Shown in pieces: positions 53,077-64,000 of a DNA stretch of 64,000 nucleotides. The notes beneath the pieces are model-generated. The model was given only the letters and a program-made list of their open reading frames with translations, was not told the origin of the DNA and did no database searches. The translations under genes were made by a program, and so were the position numbers. Origin of the DNA: Planktothricoides raciborskii GIHE-MW2 (GTDB lineage Bacteria; Cyanobacteriota; Cyanobacteriia; Cyanobacteriales; Laspinemataceae); NCBI RefSeq assembly GCF_040564635.1, contig NZ_CP159837.1, positions 2,839,001-2,903,000 on the forward strand, given 5' to 3'. The first letter of the stretch is position 1. Every line of letters starts with the position of its first letter.

Positions 53077-53613
53077 TTAAGGTCGGTGACTGCGGCGAAT
53101 TTGGGTAATTTGGTCAGCTTGATCTAATAAAGCATTCGGCATATTTGGCCCAGTTAAAATGATATCAACGTGACTGGGACGATTATCCAGTAGTTCGATC
53201 ACTTCCTCTTCTGGAATTAAGCCAAAATGAATAGCCAAACTTAATTCGTCAAGCACGACTAAATCGTATTTTCCGGCCGTCACCGCTTGTTGGGTATGTT
53301 CCCACAATTCGCGTAAGGCAGCTACTTCGATTTCTTCCAGTTCAGGGGTGTCAATGCAGCGGGGCAGATTACATCTAATCCATTCTAAATTTTGCCCTAG
53401 GCGAACGGGATTTTCTTTCCCACCACCGATTCCGCCTTTGAGAAACTGTACCACTAACACTGGGGTTCCCTGACCGGCAATTCTCAAGGCTTGCGCCATG
53501 ACGTTGGTAAAAAAGCAGCGGTGGGTGCTAGTGAACACCTGAACCAGTCCCGAAATCGCATAAGCGGGACGAATTGGAGTTTCGACAATCGGAGTTTCAA
53601 GCTGTGCAATCAT
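53077..53613 (-). CDS. CobO/BtuR-like protein without Walker A
   Basis: A 178-residue protein of the CobO/BtuR-CobP (corrinoid adenosyltransferase) fold. LVQVFTSTHRCFFTNVMAQA sits where BtuR has its P-loop GxGKTT, so Gly and Lys of Walker A are replaced. The rest is conserved: TPVLVVQFLKGGIGGGKENP, NLEWIRCNLPRCIDTPE, YDLVVLDELSLAIHFGLI (Walker B-like) and VDIILTGPNMPNALLDQADQ. Cyanobacteria commonly have such a variant. ATP-dependent adenosylation is doubtful. Confidence 0.82.
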   Translation of the reverse strand: MIAQLETPIVETPIRPAYAISGLVQVFTSTHRCFFTNVMAQALRIAGQGTPVLVVQFLKGGIGGGKENPVRLGQNLEWIRCNLPRCIDTPELEEIEVAALRELWEHTQQAVTAGKYDLVVLDELSLAIHFGLIPEEEVIELLDNRPSHVDIILTGPNMPNALLDQADQITQIRRSHRP

Positions 53614-53998
53614 ACGGGCAGTTTTCCCTGTTAGAAGGTCTAATAGAAGGTCTAAATAGTAGATCTACGGAGACAAAAGCTGTGGAGCATGACCATGATA
53701 ACAGACAATATGTAGCGTATTTTTGATAATTTAGGCAAAAATGAACACTAGATGTATGAAACTGAAGTGGCCTAGATCACCATCGCTTTTGATGATACTT
53801 GCTTTGGGATAAATTCTGTAAATTTATTTAAAATCCAAAATTTCTTTTTTTGTCATTCTTCCTTGGTCTTTTAACAAATAACATATAACAAATAGCAATA
53901 AACAAGTAACAAATAAAGAATGAAAAATAACTTTTTTAATGATGAAAGGTAAAATTTGTAGTAAAGTCTACTGTGGGTACGAGTAGGAGAGTAGTTTC

Positions 53999-54565
53999 GT
54001 GAGATTGGTAATTCTGGGCGGGCCGGGTGCTGGCAAAGGAACACAAGCAAATAAGTTGTGTAATTATTTTCAAATTCCTTTGGTTTCTATTGGCGATATT
54101 CTTCGAGAGGCGATCGCGGCAGAAACGAAGTTGGGAAAAAAAGCCCAACCTTATGTGGCAAAAGGCGAACTGGTGCCAGATATGACGATGATTAAATTTG
54201 TGCGCGATCGCCTGCTGCAACCAGATACGAAAAATGGCTGGTTATTGGATGGTTATCCCCGCACCGCTTTCCAAGCGGAAGAGTTAGATTTTTTACTGGA
54301 TCATTTGCAGCAAAAGTTAGATTGGGCGATTTTTTTAAATGTGCCAGAGGATGTATTAATCCAGCGCTGCAAAAATCGAGAATATAGGCGGACTGATGAC
54401 GAACCGGAAATCGTCAAACGGCGGATTGATTTGTTTAATCAGCGCACGATTCCCTTGTTGGAATATTATGAATATTACCAGCGACAACGCCTGATTTCCG
54501 TTCACGGAGAACAAACTCCCGAAGCAATATTTCAGGAAGTTTTGACCCAGATTAAGACTCAATAA
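53999..54565 (+). CDS. adk: Adenylate kinase family protein
   Basis: A 188-residue short-lid adenylate kinase, interconverting ATP + AMP and 2 ADP. Motifs are RLVILGGPGAGKGTQANKLC (P-loop), VSIGDILREAI (AMP site), GWLLDGYPRTAFQAEELDFL and RCKNREYRRTDDEPEIVKRR (short lid). The start is GTG at 53999 after GTACGAGTAGGAGAG. Cyanobacteria often have a second adk in the ribosomal cluster, so this may be a paralogue. Confidence 0.93.
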   Translation: MRLVILGGPGAGKGTQANKLCNYFQIPLVSIGDILREAIAAETKLGKKAQPYVAKGELVPDMTMIKFVRDRLLQPDTKNGWLLDGYPRTAFQAEELDFLLDHLQQKLDWAIFLNVPEDVLIQRCKNREYRRTDDEPEIVKRRIDLFNQRTIPLLEYYEYYQRQRLISVHGEQTPEAIFQEVLTQIKTQ

Positions 54566-54623
54566 TGTCACAGGGTGAGAGGCGATCGCCCATATAATTT
54601 TTAAGAATTAATTGAATTTTTTT

Positions 54624-55349
54624 ATGACTTGGCAACGTCCTGATGGCAGAAAAGCGGATCAATTACGTCCGATTTCTTTTGAGAAAGATTTTACTCGATT
54701 TGCGGCGGCTTCGGTGTTAACTCGATGTGGTGATACCCAGGTACTTTGTAATGTTAGTATTGAGCCTGGAGTGCCGAAATTTTTATTCGGTCAAGGGAAA
54801 GGTTGGCTGACTGCGGAATATCGAATGCTTCCCGGTGCTACGTTACAACGGCAACGCCGGGAGTTTATGCAGCTATCCGGTCGCACCCAAGAAATTCAAC
54901 GGTTAATTGGCCGAAGTTTGCGGTCTTGTTTGGATTTTCAAGTGTTAGGAGAAAGGACGATTACGGTGGATGCAGATGTGTTGCAAGCGGATGCCGGAAC
55001 GCGGACAACGGCCATTACGGGCGGGTTTGTGGCGCTGTCTTTGGCGATGCAAAAGCTAGTAGAAAAAGGGGAATTGGCGCGATCGCCGATTATTAATCAG
55101 GTGGCAGCAGTGTCCGTGGGACTGCTCGACGGTGAGGCATTTCTGGATTTAAATTACCCGGAAGATGTGGCAGCAGATATTGATTGTAATGTGGTAATGA
55201 CCGGGGATTTAAACTTAATTGAAATCCAAGGTACGGCGGAAGCGGGTAGCTTTAGCCGAGGTCAATTAAATCAGATTTTAGATGTGGCGGAAAAAGGCAT
55301 GAAAGAATTATTCGCCGCCCAGGGTAAGGTAATTAGTAATTCTGTCTGA
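54624..55349 (+). CDS. rph: Ribonuclease PH
   Basis: A 241-residue phosphorolytic 3'-5' exoribonuclease that trims tRNA 3' ends. [20 protein letters not shown] starts it; [80 protein letters not shown] and [20 protein letters not shown] are family motifs. The ATG at 54624 is preferred over an upstream TTG. It follows adk by 58 bases on the same strand. Confidence 0.97.
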
Positions 55350-55385
55350 ATCATTTAATGATTAGAATTGCTTAAGGAGTAAACC

Positions 55386-55802
55386 ATGTTACGCTACTTT
55401 CTGACTCTGATTTCTACAATGGCGTTCACAGGGGCGATCGCCATTTTTCCTAAATATTGGGGGGCGTTACAAGATAAACGTCTGAGTGGTCCTGTTCTCA
55501 GTGGTTTGCTATTCACTGCCTTGGCGATCTGGGTAATTTTTAGGCTGCTAAAAGAAGATTTTCCCCTAGGTGCGGCACCCGTAAAAATCTTTAAGCAATA
55601 TGTGTTTTATGGTATTCAGTTTGGCAGTTTAATTGGATTTTTTTGCTTATCTGGTTGGTTATTATCTTTGGGTACGGATTGGCTATTTTCTAGATTTTTA
55701 TCAGCAACCATTGTTAATGGATTATCTTTTCTTTGCTTTAGTTTATTTGCGATCGGGGTGATTCGCCTAATTACCTGGATGATCGATCAGAAAATTTTTT
55801 GA
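55386..55802 (+). CDS. Small membrane protein, unknown
   Basis: A 138-residue protein with four hydrophobic segments: YFLTLISTMAFTGAIAIF, LSGLLFTALAIWVIFRLL, YGIQFGSLIGFFCLSGWLLS and TIVNGLSFLCFSLFAIGVIR. A clear AAGGAG ribosome binding site precedes the ATG, and it starts 36 bases after rph, so it is probably cotranscribed. No family was recognised. Confidence 0.72.
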   Translation: MLRYFLTLISTMAFTGAIAIFPKYWGALQDKRLSGPVLSGLLFTALAIWVIFRLLKEDFPLGAAPVKIFKQYVFYGIQFGSLIGFFCLSGWLLSLGTDWLFSRFLSATIVNGLSFLCFSLFAIGVIRLITWMIDQKIF

Positions 55803-55843
55803 TAGTTTCCGATCAGTATCTACTCAGAATTGAGTGAATTTTG

Positions 55844-56965
55844 CTAAGTCTGATTTGGGCGAGATGGATATAAGCGATCGCGTAACTTAATCACCGGATG
55901 TTCAATTAATTGAGCCATAAAAATTCCCAAGAGAATACTGCCGAATAGATAAAGCCAAAATTCAACAACAAAATGAATTTTATGCGGAGAAATTTCTTTA
56001 ATCCATTCCACTACCCATTTCGCAACAGGCATATGCCAAAGATAAATTGAGTATGAATTTAAACCAATAAAAGCGATCGCATCAGTTGTCGCCTCAATGA
56101 TTTTATGGATTGGATTTCCTTTAGGCAAATGAGGTTGCCAGTACAGTAGAAAACAGATCAGACCCCCAAACCCAAGATCCACGAAAGTGACACCAATTTC
56201 GTGCATAAAAACACTTTTTTACAAGTCTAAAACTAGACAAGGTGAGAGGAAAAAAATGCTGACTATCAGGATACTATTCATGCGTCGCTGAATAAACTGA
56301 GAAAATTTAGCCTGGTGAAAATTGTGCAAGTAAGCGAGTAAAACGCCAAAGCTGAGTGAATCTAACCGTAAATGAGTATGATGAAGATAGTGATTTGTAT
56401 AGGGAATATACCACTCTGTGACGATCCGAACGAGTAGCATCAAAATAGCGATCGCTACAACCAGAGGAACGATCGCCTTAAATGGATCTGCTTTATCTTT
56501 AGAAAAGTGGCATAAACTGATTAAACAAATCGGTAAAACAATCACATAGAAATGCTGGTCTACAGCTAAATACCAAGTATGATTCCACAGACCTAAAAAA
56601 TAATTTTGCACAAAGAATAGTTCAGCCCCTACCGACGCCAGCTTAAAAGGTTGTTGGCAAATCAGATTATATAAAATTGTTACGGCAATTAATAGATAAA
56701 ATGGTAAATAAATTCTAATTCCGCGACGACTTAAAAAATCATAAAAATTGATTTTGCCAGTTTTTTTGTATTCTCTGAATAAAATTCCCCCCACGAGAAA
56801 GCCACTCAATAAAAAAAATAAGTCAACCCCTGTCCAGCCAGCGATATACCAAACCTCACTAATAAATTTATGTCTGCCTAGGACTAATAAAACCGCGATC
56901 GCTCTGAGAATATCGAGGGATTTAAATCTGTTATGATTTGGTTCATTTTTCTGATAATTTGTCAT
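55844..56965 (-). pseudogene. Acyltransferase (OafA/YrhL-like) with in-frame stop
   Basis: Frames 56965-56219 and 56206-55844 are in the same phase and belong to one 373-codon gene. TAA at 56219-56221 interrupts it after SPCLVLDL. The N-terminal part has the acyltransferase-3 start (FKSLDILRAIAVLLVLGRHK, catalytic His; TGVDLFFLLSGFLVGGILFR) and several helices; the second part has SYSIYLWHMPVAKWVV and GSILLGIFMAQLIEHPVIKL. Such proteins O-acetylate surface polysaccharides. The stop replaces one residue in a membrane-helix junction. It is the only visible lesion, so the mutation may be recent. Confidence 0.85.
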
Positions 56966-57357
56966 TTGATGAATCTATATTATATTATTGTTTAATTCCG
57001 TGCCTTGATCTAGACAATTCTGGCTTTGATAACGGATCGATACCCCCACCCCCCGATAAGCACGCCAATCGGATAAGCGAGAATTTGGCCACAAGTCTAG
57101 TATAGCAAATTCATAAAATCGTTTTCTGTTTATCGATCTATGCCAATCTATGCCAAATTTAAATTTGAGGTTAAGCCATATAAAAATCTATAAAAAATAT
57201 TAAGATTTGCCCATATTTATCATATATATGTTAATATTGCAGATATCTTGGTTAATTAGCTAAAAGTTAATAGATGATTTAATAAATTCCTTTGATTAAA
57301 AAAACCACCCAAAAAATATCCTGTTTTTAGTAATTATTTTTCATTCTAAAAAATTGT
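56966..57357. other. Intergenic, no gene seen
   Basis: AT-rich spacer between divergent genes. A patch at 57030-57080 (ACCCCCACCCCCCGATAAG, GCCAATCGGATAAGC) is a degraded repeat. The remainder likely holds promoters of both neighbours. Confidence 0.5.
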
Positions 57358-58380
57358 ATGTCTAATCATCGGTTTGTTACTTATAATATCCTCTCTAGCC
57401 ATTTAGCTGAACCGGAACATTTTGTTAAGTGCGATCGGGCTGACTTAGACCCAGAAACTCGCCTCAACCGGATCGTGGCCAAATTATTACCGGAAATTGC
57501 CCAAAACTCGATTATTTGTCTCCAAGAAGTTTCGACATTGTGGGCTGGTGAGTTGCATCGGTTTTTCGCTAACCATAATTATTATTTAGTCACGGGTTTA
57601 TATGGCCATCAGAAAAATGGTTATATGGGAGTAGCCATTGCTTTTCCTCTGGGAAAGTACCAAATGTTAGAGGCCAAAATAGAACGGTTAAGTGATAGCC
57701 GGGATTGGCCAAAGTTATCCCCTTTAGCCGTGGCTGCAAGAAATTTCCTCCAAGGATTTGTGCGTCTGTGGGACAAAAAAAAGGCCAAAAGTCTGGAACA
57801 CGCGATCGCTCATGCCCAACGGCGGACGAATCAAGTGATTTTTCTGCGGTTAGACGATAAAGCACAAGGCGATCGATTCGGGGTGGCGACTTATCATATG
57901 CCCTGTGTTTATTATGCCCCGAAAGTGATGACTATTCATACATCAATGTTGGTGCAACGTATCCAAGAATTAGCCCAAAATGATCCCTTTGTTTTAACGG
58001 GAGATTTTAATATTCGCCCCGCCGAATCTCAATATCAGTTAATTACTACGGGGTCAATGGCTAGTAATCATCCAGCTTATCCACCAATCCTCAAAGGCGA
58101 TCGCTGGCGACCTGAATTAGCCACACCATTGCGGAGTGCTTATCGGGAGGCATTTGGTCAAGAACCGGAATTTACCAACTATGCTCAAACCAGAAAAAAA
58201 GCTCCTTTTCAAGAAACCTTAGATTATATTTGGTTATCTCCTCAATGGCAGGTAGTTTCTGCTTTGCCCCTACCCACTCGCGACCAAGTAACCAGTTCTT
58301 TTCCTAATCCTGAACAGCCCTCGGATCATATTTTATTGGCTGTGGAAATGACATTAAAGAAATTGGGATCATCTATATAG
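57358..58380 (+). CDS. Endonuclease/exonuclease/phosphatase family hydrolase
   Basis: A 340-residue EEP-superfamily enzyme. Catalytic motifs are FVTYNILSSHLAE (Asn), SIICLQEVSTLW (Glu), VATYHMPCVYYAP (His), FVLTGDFNIRPAESQY (Asp, Asn), LDYIWLSP and QPSDHILLAVEM (Asp-His). The CCR4-like or sphingomyelinase-like subtype cannot be told. There is no signal peptide, so it is probably cytoplasmic. It is a single gene with an AT-rich leader. Confidence 0.88.
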   Translation: MSNHRFVTYNILSSHLAEPEHFVKCDRADLDPETRLNRIVAKLLPEIAQNSIICLQEVSTLWAGELHRFFANHNYYLVTGLYGHQKNGYMGVAIAFPLGKYQMLEAKIERLSDSRDWPKLSPLAVAARNFLQGFVRLWDKKKAKSLEHAIAHAQRRTNQVIFLRLDDKAQGDRFGVATYHMPCVYYAPKVMTIHTSMLVQRIQELAQNDPFVLTGDFNIRPAESQYQLITTGSMASNHPAYPPILKGDRWRPELATPLRSAYREAFGQEPEFTNYAQTRKKAPFQETLDYIWLSPQWQVVSALPLPTRDQVTSSFPNPEQPSDHILLAVEMTLKKLGSSI

Positions 58381-58887
58381 ATGATCCCAATCCCTGTAAA
58401 TATTGTGGATTGTAGAGGCGAAGCATGACCGCAGAGATTTATGGTTAAAAGCAGAGATTTAATCCGGTCATGCTTCGCCCTTTCCGACAGGTATTTCTAG
58501 TTAAAAGCAAAAAATTTTTTTACGTTTATCCTCTCACCATTCCAAAAAAAAATCAGGTTATATTTATTGCCAAAAACCCAATATTTTGATTTTAATAGTC
58601 CTAAATAGGTGACAATCATGAAGATTTGGTCGCGATCAATTTATGGTGATTAAACAACCGCTAATTGGACAAACCCTTGCCCAGGATTTCCAGCACTCAA
58701 ATCCCCACTTGTCTATATATAACTAATACCGTTTCCAATTAAAAATGCAACAGTAGAATAGCGGGGCGGGGCGAAGCATGACCGTATATAGGTTAATATT
58801 TTGAGCGGATACGATCTGCCGGAATGCTTTGCCCCTACTGTTGGATGATTTTTTGTAAATGGTATAATTTTCTAGGAATACCAGTCT
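58381..58887. repeat. Intergenic with two GCGAAGCAT elements
   Basis: No gene. The elements at 58413-58481 (arms AGGCGAAGCATGACC and GGTCATGCTTCGCCCT) and 58768-58836 (GGGGCGAAGCAT and ATGCTTTGCCCC) are members of the family at 49407-49531. A short symmetric ATAGATGATCCCAAT/GGGATCATCTATAT hairpin spans the EEP stop. Confidence 0.8.
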
Positions 58888-59925
58888 TTAAGCGAAAACC
58901 CCTCGACGTTCTTGATCTAACTCAATTGACTCAAACAGCGCTTGGAAATTTCCTTCCCCAAAACCATGATTACCCTTGCGCTGAATATACTCAAAAAAGA
59001 TTGGGCCGATACTATTTTTCGTAAAAATTTGTAACAAAAACCCGCCCCCCTGAGCTTCCCCACCATCAATCAGAATTTTATGTTTATGCAACTTTTCGAC
59101 ATTTTCAGTATGGCTGGGTAAGCGGCGATCGATTAATTCATAATAAGTATCTGGAGTATCTTGGAACTCAATGCCTTTATCGGATAAACCAGCAACAGTT
59201 TTGTATAGATTGGTACTAGCCAGGGCAATATGTTGAATTCCCTCCCCATTGTACTCACGAATAAACTCGGCGATTTGAGAGCGATCGTCTTTAGTTTCAT
59301 TCAGGGGGATGATCACGTTCCGACAAGGACTGGCGACAACTTCACTATATAAACCTGTTTTTTTCCCATGAATATGAAATGACCGAATCCTTTCAAAACC
59401 GAAGACTGTTTCGTAGAAACGGCACATCCTCTCTACACCACCTTGGTTCAAATTATGGGTAAGATGATCGATACGTTCCAAACAGGTTTCAGGATTAATC
59501 TCATAACTACGTTGGTAATTAAACAGAGAAAATAACTTTTTCTCCTGTTCATCATCTACCAAATAAATTAGCGAAGCACCCACACCTTTAATTGCCGGAA
59601 TATCATAGTCCGTTTTTTCCGCCGGGACAGCCCCCAAGGAAATTGCTTGGTCAAAAGCTTTCTGGGAGTCTTCTACCTTAAAACCCATCGCACTCGCACC
59701 CCGGCCATGAATACTGCGAAATATCTCCGTATTCCCCCCAACACCAGGGTTAGAGATAAAGTGAATATCTCCTTGACAATGCAGGGTAGCGGGTGCTTGA
59801 CCAAATTCTCCCACTTTTCGCATTCCCATTTTCTCGAACAGAGCTAAAAGCAAGTGAGGACGACTACCGGAAAACTCTAAGAAGGAAATCGATGATACTT
59901 TAACTTGATCGGTTGTTTGTGGCAT
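58888..59925 (-). CDS. hpd: 4-hydroxyphenylpyruvate dioxygenase
   Basis: A 345-residue Fe(II) dioxygenase making homogentisate, the precursor of tocopherol (and possibly used in tyrosine breakdown). The three iron ligands are visible: His in RIDHLTHN, His in GIQHIALAST and Glu in IGPIFFEYIQRKGNHGFG. Two VOC domains are present, the first degenerate. Length is normal. Monocistronic and divergent from chlB. Confidence 0.95.
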   Translation of the reverse strand: MPQTTDQVKVSSISFLEFSGSRPHLLLALFEKMGMRKVGEFGQAPATLHCQGDIHFISNPGVGGNTEIFRSIHGRGASAMGFKVEDSQKAFDQAISLGAVPAEKTDYDIPAIKGVGASLIYLVDDEQEKKLFSLFNYQRSYEINPETCLERIDHLTHNLNQGGVERMCRFYETVFGFERIRSFHIHGKKTGLYSEVVASPCRNVIIPLNETKDDRSQIAEFIREYNGEGIQHIALASTNLYKTVAGLSDKGIEFQDTPDTYYELIDRRLPSHTENVEKLHKHKILIDGGEAQGGGFLLQIFTKNSIGPIFFEYIQRKGNHGFGEGNFQALFESIELDQERRGVFA

Positions 59926-60478
59926 ATTTGAAACCTATATAAATATAAAAAAGTCTGGCAGAAATATTGATAGCAAGCCATTGGCCATCTTTTTGGTTCG
60001 CTCGGAGGATCATATAGTGGCTTAATTTGCTAAATTATACCCTGTTTATTTATTAATTTTTAATAAAAATTTCAATATTAAGAATAATAATAAAATATTA
60101 TTAGCTCGTTTTTATCGTATATAAATACTTACGATCGCCTCATACCATGACTTAACTGTTTATGCTTTTTGCTGGAGATATTTCCCTAAGGTAAACTCAA
60201 TTTTGTCATTATACTTATTATTGGGGTGTAGGGTCTAGGGCCGCAATGCTTGCGCCCTAGGGTGTAAGGTGTAGGGGGGTTTTCCCGGATTGGACAGGAA
60301 AAAATGCTCCTTCTCCTGCCATTTTACCCTTCTCACATCTTAAAGAAATATGCCAAAACATTAAAAAACGTTAAATAAAAAACAAAACCATTGTTTTAGT
60401 TTTAGGCTAGATCAGAGACAACCAAGAATCTGGGCGATCGCCTAGAAACCCAGAAACCTAAATTAGGAGAATATACTT
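59926..60478. other. Intergenic between hpd and chlB
   Basis: These 550 bases hold the promoters of two divergent genes. A repeat patch (about 60226-60282) has GGTGTAGGGTCTAGGG and a palindrome CTAGGGCCGCAATGCTTGCG...CCCTAG. TTAGGAG lies 12 bases before the chlB ATG. No gene is seen. Confidence 0.55.
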
Positions 60479-62005
60479 ATGAAATTGGCTTATTGGATGT
60501 ATGCCGGCCCCGCACATATTGGCACCCTTCGCATTGCCAGTTCTTTTAAAAATGTCCATGCTATTATGCACGCTCCTCTCGGCGATGACTATTTTAATGT
60601 GATGCGATCAATGCTGGAACGGGAACGGGATTTTACCCCAGTGACTGCCAGCGTAGTAGACCGCAATGTTTTAGCGCGGGGTTCTCAAGAAAAAGTGGTG
60701 GAAAATATTGTTCGCAAAGACCGGGAAGAAACCCCGGATTTGATTGTTCTCACCCCCACTTGTACCTCTAGCATTTTGCAAGAAGACCTGGAAAACTTTG
60801 TGCAACGGGCACAACTAGATGCCAAAGGGGATGTGATGCTGGCAGATGTGAATCACTACCGGGTGAATGAACTGCAAGCCGCCGATCGCACCCTGGATCA
60901 AATTGTTAAATTTTATATCAATAAAGCCCGGAAAAAAGGCGAACTGCCGGAAGGAAAAACCGACAAACCTTCCGTCAATATTATTGGAATGTCTACCCTA
61001 GGTTTCCACAACAATCACGACTGCACGGAATTGAAGCGCTTGATGGCTGATTTGGGCATTGAAGTCAACGAAGTGATTCCCGAAGGTGCTTCGGTTCATA
61101 ATCTGAAAAACCTGCCCCGCGCTTGGTTTAACTTAGTACCTTATCGGGAATTAGGCTTGATGGCGGCCAAATATTTGGAAAGCGAATTTGGGATGCCATT
61201 AGTTGATATTACCCCGATGGGAATTGTGGAAACAGCCCGCTGTATCCGCAAAATTCAGCAAGTGCTGAATGCCCAAGGTGCGGATGTAAATTATGAAGAA
61301 TTTATCGATCATCAAACGCGGTTTATTTCCCAAGCGGCTTGGTTTTCTCGTTCCATTGACTGCCAAAATTTAACCGGCAAAAAAGCGGTGGTGTTTGGGG
61401 ATAATACCCATGCTGCTGCTATGACAAAAATTTTGGCGCGGGAAATGGGAATTCATGTGGTTTTGGCGGGAACTTATTGTAAATATGATGCGGATTGGTT
61501 CCGGGAACAAGTCAGCGAATATTGCGATGAAGTGCTGATTAGTGACGATAATGCAGCGATTGGAGATGCGATCGCCCGCTTAGAACCGGCAGCTATTTTT
61601 GGCACCCAAATGGAACGTCATGTGGGCAAACGTTTAGACATTCCTTGTGGGGTGATTGCCTCACCGATTCACATTCAAAATTTCCCCGTGGGTTACACTC
61701 CTTTCCTGGGTTATGAAGGGGCGAATCAACTGGTGGATTTAATCTACAATTCCTTTACTTTGGGCATGGAAGACCACCTGCTAGAAATCTTTGGCGGTCA
61801 CGATACCAAAGAAGTGATTACTAAAGGAATTTCGGCGGATTCTGACCTGACTTGGACAAAAGATGCCCAAGCAGAATTAAACAAAATCCCTGGTTTTGTC
61901 CGAGGCAAAATTAAGCGGAACACGGAAAAATTTGCTCGCGATCGCGGCTTTGACCAAATCACCGTTGAAGTGATGTATGCGGCAAAAGAATCTGTAGGGG
62001 CATGA
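60479..62005 (+). CDS. chlB: Light-independent protochlorophyllide reductase subunit B
   Basis: A 508-residue nitrogenase-like subunit. With ChlN and the ATP-driven ChlL it reduces protochlorophyllide in the dark. [20 protein letters not shown] starts it; Asp36 (APLGDDYFN) is the unusual non-Cys ligand of the NB cluster, with Cys in TPTCTSS near residue 96. [20 protein letters not shown] and [17 protein letters not shown] are typical. The C-terminal [20 protein letters not shown] is duplicated 1.7 kb downstream. chlL and chlN are not in the window. Confidence 0.97.
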
Positions 62006-62043
62006 CATAGAAACCGGGTTTCTCAAAGAAACCCGGTTTTCGA

Positions 62044-62167
62044 CTGGGTAGGGTGGGCAAAATTTTGCCCACCCTACAATTGCTAAAATGTCTGGCTTAT
62101 CATAAATTTTTGAATCTAATAAGCTGGGTAGGGTGGGCAAAATTTTGCCCACCCTACAATTGCTAAA
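62044..62167. repeat. Two 44-bp palindromic repeats
   Basis: Copies at 62044-62087 and 62124-62167 are identical. Each holds a perfect 30-bp palindrome (GTAGGGTGGGCAAAA and complement). A third, shortened copy lies at 63829-63864, downstream of the chlB 3'-end duplicate. Upstream, at about 62010-62040, an AGAAACC palindrome pair forms a hairpin after the chlB stop. Confidence 0.92.
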
Positions 62168-62189
62168 TTATCCGCTAATTTATATATAG

Positions 62190-63662
62190 CTAAATTGCTT
62201 GTAATATATTTTCTGAAAAATTGGTAATTATACTAATCGTTTCTGCGGATAAACTTAACTCTTGGTAAATGACTTGATTCACCGCAAATATATATTGCAT
62301 TGCTGCTTGCGATGAGACTTTTTTTTCATAAGCTTCCTGAGCAAATCTTTGAAGTTTTTCTTTTCCCTTAACGCTAATTTCCGGGATAGGAATCCGCCCT
62401 ACATAACCAGAAGTAATCATGTTAGACCGATTTAATATCCCCCGGACCATAAATGTCACCAAATGACTATTTAAGTAAGCAATCAGCCACCAAGTATCCC
62501 GATCGCTCGTAATAATATTGGCATTGACTCCATAAGTTGAATTAGCTGGTAAATAGCAAGCAGAAAAAGGAATTCCCATCGAAGAACAAGTTATTCCCGG
62601 TCGATATAATAGGTCTTGGTTACGCACCATAAAATTAGGAACTTTTTGGGCAATTGATAAGAAATTATCGGCTAAGTAAGCATTAGGATGAGTAAAAAAC
62701 CGAGATTTACCAGGATTTTTATAGAAGGGTATGTTAAATCCTGGTTTTTTCTGTTTAGATAAATATTCGCGATCGCATCCGGTAGAAATTCCGGTGACAC
62801 AAGGAAATAAAGTTCCTAACCTGGGATAAGAAAATAGCCCCTGGATTTCATCGGTCATGGCGATCGCAAATTCATAGCGATCTGATTTCCCTGACAGCAG
62901 AATTTGCTCTAAAGGTGCGGTGACAAATTTTTTCGCTTCTAATGTTGTGGCCAATTTTTGCATATTTAACGGACGATTTGCTATTTTAACTTGTTTTTGA
63001 TACTCGCTTCCTTTTTGCAGAATCATAATACAAGTCCGCACGTCAGCCCCTTGAGCCAAAAACAGGTCATTGGGACAGAGAATCAGATAGTGAATTGCAC
63101 AATTATTGATAATTTTTTGCCGCAATTCTGTATGCGCTTTAGCCGTCAGGAATGAATCCAGAGTAATCATCCCGATCAAAGCGCCATTCTTGGCAAAATC
63201 AATTAACGCCGATATAAAGATGGAATACATATTATGTACTCCTACGTCTGAGAAAAAACTCAATAGCTTAGATTTATTTTGTCTAATATAATCGACTTCA
63301 TGGCAGTTATAAGGTGGATTAGCAATATAAAAATCGTAATTTAGTCCTATTTTTTGATTTAAAATACAGTGATTTTTTTGATTGATATAGTATTCTAAAA
63401 AATCTTGGGGGTGAAAATTTATGGTTTCTGGCAAATTGAAGGATAAAATATCCATCCCGTCTACGAATACACCCCGCTTCATCAGCGGAATTGCCATTTC
63501 CCCGCGACCCACACAAGGATCTAAGGCATAACTGCCGGTGGGATTAAGGTTTGTAATTGCCCAAGCAATGAACTCAGAAATAAAAGCCGGGGTCGAGTAG
63601 TAACCTGTTTCTCGCCGGTCTATACCTGTTTTTGTCTGAATTATTTTAGGATGGCGACCCAT
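62190..63662 (-). CDS. N6-adenine DNA methyltransferase (Eco57I-like)
   Basis: A 490-residue class I methyltransferase. The SAM motif is ALDPCVGRGEMAIPLMKRG near residue 50, the catalytic motif is DFYIANPPYN near residue 115 (NPPY, adenine-N6), and YSTPAFISEFIAWAI is the usual motif X. A C-terminal half of about 220 residues (GISTGCDREYLSKQKKPGF, ITSGYVGRIPIPEI) is a target-recognition domain. No restriction gene is adjacent, so it is an orphan methylase or part of a system reduced to one gene. It is AT-richer than chlB and lies between two copies of the chlB 3' end. Confidence 0.9.
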   Translation of the reverse strand: MGRHPKIIQTKTGIDRRETGYYSTPAFISEFIAWAITNLNPTGSYALDPCVGRGEMAIPLMKRGVFVDGMDILSFNLPETINFHPQDFLEYYINQKNHCILNQKIGLNYDFYIANPPYNCHEVDYIRQNKSKLLSFFSDVGVHNMYSIFISALIDFAKNGALIGMITLDSFLTAKAHTELRQKIINNCAIHYLILCPNDLFLAQGADVRTCIMILQKGSEYQKQVKIANRPLNMQKLATTLEAKKFVTAPLEQILLSGKSDRYEFAIAMTDEIQGLFSYPRLGTLFPCVTGISTGCDREYLSKQKKPGFNIPFYKNPGKSRFFTHPNAYLADNFLSIAQKVPNFMVRNQDLLYRPGITCSSMGIPFSACYLPANSTYGVNANIITSDRDTWWLIAYLNSHLVTFMVRGILNRSNMITSGYVGRIPIPEISVKGKEKLQRFAQEAYEKKVSSQAAMQYIFAVNQVIYQELSLSAETISIITNFSENILQAI

Positions 63663-63739
63663 TTTTAATTATGTAACTTGCTTGCTATGACTATTGATTA
63701 ATTTTAACTAATTTTTTGAAAAAAATCAAATTTAAAATA

Positions 63740-63805
63740 GCGATCGCGGCTTTGACCAAATCACCGCTGAAGTGATGTATGCCGCCAAAGAATCTGTAGG
63801 GGCAT
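63740..63805 (+). pseudogene. Second copy of chlB 3' end
   Basis: These 66 bases match the end of chlB (61938-62003) with three substitutions, two of them synonymous. It reads [20 protein letters not shown] then Ala and a stop, with one Val to Ala change. The upstream part of chlB is absent. A shortened third copy of the palindromic repeat follows at 63829-63864, in the order seen after the complete gene. Confidence 0.93.
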
Positions 63806-63828
63806 AGAGTTACCTTTGCTTGACCTAG

Positions 63829-63864
63829 CTGGGTAGGGTGGGCTTTTACCCTACAATTGCTAAA
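63829..63864. repeat. Shortened copy of the 44-bp repeat
   Basis: CTGGGTAGGGTGGGC and ACCCTACAATTGCTAAA are kept but the palindrome centre is reduced by eight bases. The remaining 63865-64000 shows no gene. Confidence 0.85.
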
Positions 63865-64000
63865 AAAGAGGATAAAATCGGCATTGAAAAGAAAGCACGA
63901 TCAGCTATCACCGGCTGCGTAAAAATTTTCATTTTTTGTTAACGTCAAATAAAAAAAAATGCGAGAATAATCGCTCGCCAGCCTTAAATTTTTCTAGACA

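Follow-up and report, generated by a model that had tools for sequence, protein, structure and literature searches.

A solitary DNA methyltransferase gene framed by two copies of the chlB 3′ end in Planktothricoides

Insertion of restriction–modification genes with a long target duplication was reportedly described in Helicobacter pylori by Nobusato et al. in 2000, and recombination associated with HIP1, an abundant 8-bp sequence, is said to have been found in cyanobacteria by Akiyama in 1998 and by Robinson et al. Three papers describe restriction–modification genes that insert with long, variable target duplications (∼100 bp) and are linked to rearrangements (PMC3874152, PMC3031569, PMC1643837). 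For HIP1, a further paper cites evidence of a role in site-specific recombination and states that none exists for homologous recombination (PMC4390886). Here we analysed 64,000 nucleotides (the window; contig NZ_CP159837.1, positions 2,839,001 to 2,903,000) from the filamentous cyanobacterium Planktothricoides raciborskii GIHE-MW2, in which a DNA methyltransferase gene lies between chlB and a repeat of that gene's 3′ end. The locus resembles the Helicobacter insertions in its host direct repeat of the ∼100-bp order, in that no transposase was seen and in its rearranged neighbourhood. Unlike them, it has only the methyltransferase left, one of its edges lies on HIP1, its host is a cyanobacterium and no empty allele was found. 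It is also like solitary type II methyltransferases in having an intact methyltransferase without an adjacent endonuclease, but differs from typical orphans in that a probable lost partner is identifiable in a related genus and in Beijerinckia. As in HIP1-associated recombination, one junction falls exactly at the HIP1 octamer GCGATCGC, although here this is the edge of a chromosomal duplication, the cause of which we infer. Among the open-licence papers listed in our literature searches, none was seen to report this locus or to describe, for any cyanobacterium, insertion with a long target duplication.

The chlB gene is intact (60479–62005, plus strand; light-independent protochlorophyllide reductase subunit B, 508 amino acids; TIGR01278, E = 1.2e-240; PF00148 and PF08369). 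An earlier note, made from the sequence alone, had claimed that its last 66 bases recur downstream. A repeat search of the window found this direct repeat at 61938–62003 and 63740–63805 with 63 of 66 positions identical, although it stops two bases short of the gene end, and the TGA of chlB is TAG in the distant copy. The pair scores E = 2.7e-23 in a BLAST search within the same genome and is therefore not a chance likeness. From the tract that starts at 61938, within chlB (copy 1), to the one that starts at 63740 (copy 2), GTT changes to GCT (Val to Ala) and GCG and GCA each change to GCC, i.e. the two synonymous changes and the one conservative change already noted. By local alignment the likeness continues, through deletions in copy 2, to 62088 and 63865, and the duplicated tract is thus ∼150 bp long, more than the earlier note had recognised. 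It comprises the chlB end, a terminator hairpin and a palindrome, to which a short unique tail is added in this genome (G000; 7.2 Mb).

Copy 1 (61938–62088, plus strand; defined by repeat search, alignment and tail search) is continuous with chlB and runs from the 66 bp of the gene end through a terminator-like hairpin with arms AAACCGGGTTTCT and AGAAACCCGGTTT (62011–62039, plus strand) and a 30-bp perfect palindrome (62048–62077, no strand assigned) to ACCCTACAATTGCTAAAA. Both the hairpin and the palindrome were located by inverted-repeat search and belong to dispersed families: AAACCGGGTTTCT has 132 matches on both strands of 800 kb, and some of the 84 matches of the own-genome BLAST place the palindrome at other genomic sites. 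In copy 2, the 66 bp (63740–63805, plus strand) are followed by a continuation (63806–63865, plus strand) in which the hairpin is lost and the palindrome shortened before the same ACCCTACAATTGCTAAAA. In agreement with the earlier description, palindromic stretches of 44 bp (62044–62087) and 36 bp (63829–63864) follow the two ends. Beside copy 1 the palindrome unit is doubled, with a second tandem unit at 62124–62172 (plus strand) that is 96% identical to 62044–62092. When the 7.2-Mb genome was searched with at most one mismatch for the tail 17-mer ACCCTACAATTGCTAAA that follows the palindrome, there were three occurrences (62071, 62151 and 63848), all of them at this locus. Since the tail is confined to the locus, a dispersed palindrome family does not explain the likeness in G000, and that explanation was rejected. 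In a more distant Planktothricoides metagenome bin (G001; locus L086), where a single palindrome stands beside copy 1, the copies align over ∼148 bp and diverge after the palindrome. The same test is uninformative for G001, since its copy 2 lacks the tail; there the tail adjoins copy 1 only, with two mismatches, and a single match to the 17-mer pattern, with one mismatch, lies on a different contig.

The left edge of copy 2 coincides with HIP1. The homology starts exactly at the octamer at 63740–63747 (plus strand; alignment and HIP1 scan), and the same octamer forms the left edge of copy 1 (61938–61945, plus strand). The window contains 100 HIP1 sites, where 0.74 would be expected. At 100 sites per 64 kb, the chance that one chosen base falls at HIP1 is ∼0.0016, judged after the fact and for a single locus, and the breakpoint lies at HIP1 for one junction only. 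Upstream of the methyltransferase gene, a 77-bp AT-rich region (63663–63739, minus strand) ends at this octamer. The left junction is identical in G001 (AAATTTAAAATA|GCGATCGC) and the same in strain SR001, whose sequence agrees at 99.8% identity across 13,470 bp. All three Planktothricoides genomes analysed carry chlB, the methyltransferase gene and the second chlB end, and the junction is seen in two divergent genomes, G000 and G001.

The methyltransferase gene (62190–63662, minus strand; 490 amino acids) was identified from PF02384 (N6_Mtase, E = 3.3e-14) and PF07669 (Eco57I) matches in Pfam, a nearly full-length match to PADLOC MTase_II (E = 7.2e-58) and a profile match to the BseCI methylase in PDB (E = 2.1e-11). 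These assignments agree with the earlier view of an N6-adenine methyltransferase on the opposite strand, here a solitary type II enzyme. Alignment showed that the motifs DPCVGRGE (residues 48–55) and NPPY (residues 115–118), which we take to be conserved methylase motifs, are intact. Its dN/dS between G000 and G001 is 0.22, and the gene is therefore still under purifying selection. The orphan enzyme probably still methylates chromosomal adenines. The foreign look that had been ascribed to the gene is matched by its G+C content (37.5%; chlB has 45.8% and the window 42.5%) and by its distribution: among 99 related genomes, 34 have matches and only seven have strong ones (E below 1e-200), namely G000, G001 and, within genus g5 (here called the Laspinema genus), five of eight genomes. 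A two-peptide-pattern scan of genome contigs returned six loci, not all of them relatives, one being from Beijerinckia mobilis (43% identity). The plasmid collection held no close homologue (best match 23.8% over 45%), the phage collection held none, and none was confirmed among 39 candidate viral contigs.

In the Laspinema genus the homologue, 64–66% identical to the window methylase, is in some genomes paired with another gene. It lies not at chlB but between an amine oxidase gene and a gene that is presumably thiC, and in three of the eight genomes (G006, G007 and G010; e.g. L073:5866-6519) it is adjoined by a convergent gene for a 217-amino-acid protein. A 53%-identical relative of this protein (open reading frame (ORF) of 225 amino acids) adjoins the methylase in Beijerinckia. 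Because the family is paired with the methylase in distant hosts and has an invariant D...NxK (four sequences of 217–225 amino acids), it is likely to be a restriction endonuclease of an undescribed family, as judged from sequence. The 217-amino-acid protein matched nothing in Pfam, NCBIfam or PADLOC, and its AlphaFold model has low confidence (mean pLDDT 56.5). A search of 13 genomes located the protein in 3, and not in G000, G001 or G008; the result in a wider phylum sample (0 of 386 genomes) had no positive control and is uninformative. Around the window methylase, the gaps contain no plausible endonuclease ORF.

DUF433 and DUF5615 are associated with toxin–antitoxin-like genes. In two Laspinema-genus genomes (G009 and G012) a DUF433/DUF5615 pair occupies the same slot between thiC and the amine oxidase gene, and in a third (G005) the contig end at the slot reads by eye as a similar, apparently damaged pair. 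G008 keeps the methylase with ∼57 bp in the partner's place, and the contig of G011 ends just past the methylase. Across seven loci (L071, L073, L074, L075, L115, L116 and L117), the slot alternates between methylase with putative endonuclease, methylase alone and the DUF433/DUF5615 pair. We read it as an exchange slot for toxin–antitoxin-like and restriction–modification genes.

The explanation that we consider probable, if only by a little, is that a restriction–modification gene entered next to chlB, duplicating a long stretch of target, and that its cognate endonuclease was then lost. The known Planktothricoides genomes would descend from an ancestor in which the methyltransferase gene of a type II pair had integrated immediately 3′ of chlB. 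A target duplication of ∼150 bp, made up of the chlB 3′ end with its terminator and palindrome, would have been left on either side of a compact insert of ∼1.6 kb. The duplication would date from the insertion itself, and the endonuclease would have been lost here rather than never brought. One junction probably formed by recombination within HIP1, because the left edge of copy 2 lies exactly on the octamer. The duplicated host tract, the compact insert, the rearranged right flank and the lack of a recombinase among the scanned neighbours all fit insertion. Mobility is supported by the Laspinema-genus homologue, which lies elsewhere than chlB, and by the other pair that occupies its slot in G009 and G012. 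Also in favour are the locus-specific tail in G000, the arrangement and left junction shared within the genus, the partner gene of relatives, the dN/dS of the methylase and the closeness of copy 2 to chlB of its own genus.

Several observations weigh against this explanation. The empty site with a single chlB end, which the earlier note had suggested looking for, was not found, as gene and both ends are present in 3 of 3 genomes of the genus. Right of copy 2, gene order differs between G000 and G001: in G000, the counterpart of the DNA that follows copy 2 in G001 is found at a distance of ∼1.37 Mb, and the psbA part of the G000 right flank falls on a different G001 contig. Among genera, too, the order downstream of chlB varies and is common to close relatives alone. 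Given this variable order and the lack of an empty site, insertion is something that we infer rather than observe. No direct flank repeat frames the Laspinema-genus pair at the two loci tested, and a restriction–modification pair near chlB in another genome, G002, has no chlB-end copy. Gene-end copies also occur at other genes, with 3′-end copies in 7 of 522 ORFs (chlB included), and a copied rpoC1 end in G000 has counterparts in G001 and G002 where the neighbouring 164-amino-acid gene stands with a single rpoC1 end and without the 93-bp copy. Finally, the dS of the methylase (0.082; window 62190–63662 versus L070:8838-10310, G000–G001) is low against 0.133–0.221 in five other genes (Fisher P = 0.005 against chlB alone), a difference noticed after the fact at one locus. 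It may reflect a later exchange between Planktothricoides lineages after their split, which blurs dating.

The second copy itself is best explained as chlB sequence of the genus. The earlier note had suggested that copy 2 came from a related chlB and had asked which end is native. A chlB match is present in 96 of the 99 genomes, and of these a part, 30 loci outside the genus, was compared: 16 are closer to copy 1 and 3 to copy 2, with 11 ties, in keeping with copy 1 as the native end. The best match of copy 2 outside the genus is 53/66, versus 63/66 with the chlB of the same genome, and an origin in the chlB of another genus was rejected on these 30 loci. Another Planktothricoides lineage may have been the source, and the divergence of chlB between G000 and G001 (59/1527) is about equal to three changes in 66 bp. 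The working gene end is that of chlB with copy 1, and we read copy 2 as a drifting, non-coding remnant; an in-frame stop (TAA, 63733–63735) stands just upstream of copy 2 and no ORF of at least 60 amino acids is listed for it. In G001, the two copies are identical across the 66 bp. Within this stretch, one variable site groups the copies by genome (TCT in G000, TCC in G001) and none groups them by position; on these very few sites, the pattern hints that the copies have undergone conversion with each other.

The strongest alternative is that the methylase came first to lie beside chlB and that a later event of ectopic gene conversion or template switching, entering at HIP1, placed a copy of the chlB end beyond it. 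If so, the duplication would say nothing about how the methylase arrived. We regard this order of events as possible but doubtful. The exact start of copy 2 at HIP1 fits it, as do the identical copies of G001, which suggest conversion given that G000 and G001 differ at three positions. It is also in line with the rpoC1 5′ end copied beside the 164-amino-acid gene in G000, a copy that G001 and G002 lack, and with displaced chlB ends that have no gene between them in G067 and G045. However, no genome has the methylase beside chlB without a second copy, and the G000 tract passes beyond the dispersed palindrome into the unique tail, i.e. the palindrome did not set the right edge.

The cases that show gene-end copying elsewhere came in part from a survey of 800 kb of the G000 genome (5,000 bases masked; 522 ORFs), in which copies of at least 45 bp and at least 85% identity were sought within 5 kb and outside other ORFs. 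Copies of 5′ ends were as frequent as those of 3′ ends (7 of 522 ORFs), several of the survey cases are repeat-family or insertion-sequence-like by eye, and the chlB copy is the only one that starts at GCGATCGC. The 93-bp copy of the rpoC1 5′ end (96% identity) lies upstream of the 164-amino-acid gene that precedes rpoC1 in G000 (L144:1806-2723; contig 1, 2961806–2962723). This gene is HNH-like by eye, with no Pfam match above the cut-off. By sequence comparison the rpoC1 copy arose after the 164-amino-acid gene, or was lost elsewhere. The displaced chlB 3′ ends of G067 and G045 (L084:5452-5585 and L085:5959-6054) belong to another genus, are intergenic, show 95–96% identity to the chlB of the same genome and represent an independent event. 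Together, the rpoC1 and G067/G045 cases mean that gene-end copying can occur without insertion.

Two further routes appear less able to account for the locus than insertion with a long target duplication. A circular DNA that carried a chlB end and the methylase could have integrated by one homologous crossover, or a tandem duplication of chlB around the methylase could have been followed by deletion of most of the second gene; either would give the same repeat–insert–repeat layout, with a repeat made of the genus's own chlB sequence as seen here. We consider both improbable, since the plasmid, phage and viral collections hold no close methylase homologue, no further chlB sequence precedes copy 2, and the homology starts abruptly at HIP1. 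Very improbable is site-specific integration at the chlB 3′ end by a since-lost tyrosine or serine recombinase, with the repeats as att sites, which the earlier note had named as one possible route and for which a foreign gene at the 3′ end of an intact gene and an ORF near the Beijerinckia homologue (L089:8138-9829), which we take to be a large serine recombinase, could be cited, but which we rejected as the leading view because no recombinase was found among the Pfam-scanned neighbours, the ∼150-bp repeat reaches through intergenic terminators where the usual att core is shorter, and the Laspinema-genus homologue is not at chlB. The scan, which agrees with the earlier remark that no integrase is visible, revealed no transposase or integrase in the main ORFs from ∼12 kb left to ∼5 kb right of copy 2 and in the G001 right flank, with short ORFs partly covered.

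The earlier note had also suggested a search for other genes placed after chlB, and such genes exist. In G002, an unrelated type II restriction–modification pair lies 1.6–3.6 kb downstream of chlB (L077:8540-10557; endonuclease-family match E = 9.3e-74, methylase-family match E = 2.2e-29), and its methylase has no real likeness to that of the window. Between chlB and this pair are DUF433-like and Uma2-like genes, both recognised by eye. In G066, a SocA-like antitoxin domain protein is encoded downstream of chlB. The 3′ side of chlB thus receives defence and addiction genes elsewhere too, with no duplication at the G002 and G066 loci. Eight chlB loci of other genera, read with longer flanks, contained no second chlB end.

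Other features surround the locus. Just right of copy 2 and partly past the window, a pair of overlapping frames corresponds to the two halves of Uma2 (L009:12930-13516), probably a frameshifted pseudogene. Upstream, the order cobO-adk-rph-chlB (window 53077–62005), in which three additional genes separate rph from chlB in G000, is also recognisable by eye in G016 and in part in G003 and G066.

In conclusion, this is a real duplication that frames a real orphan methylase, ordinary in kind. It would be a bold extension, and we think it unlikely, that in HIP1-rich cyanobacteria HIP1 sites serve as breakpoints for the insertion or copying of restriction–modification genes and gene-end fragments. 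The octamer, the most iterated one of these genomes, would then be a place where selfish genes land and are exchanged, with the chlB 3′ side as one such slot. The locus presents, in a photosynthetic genus, a restriction–modification gene that stands between the copies of a long duplicated core-gene end, with its probable lost partner present in relatives. With one junction on HIP1, a sequence whose role in recombination is unsettled, it is a useful test case.

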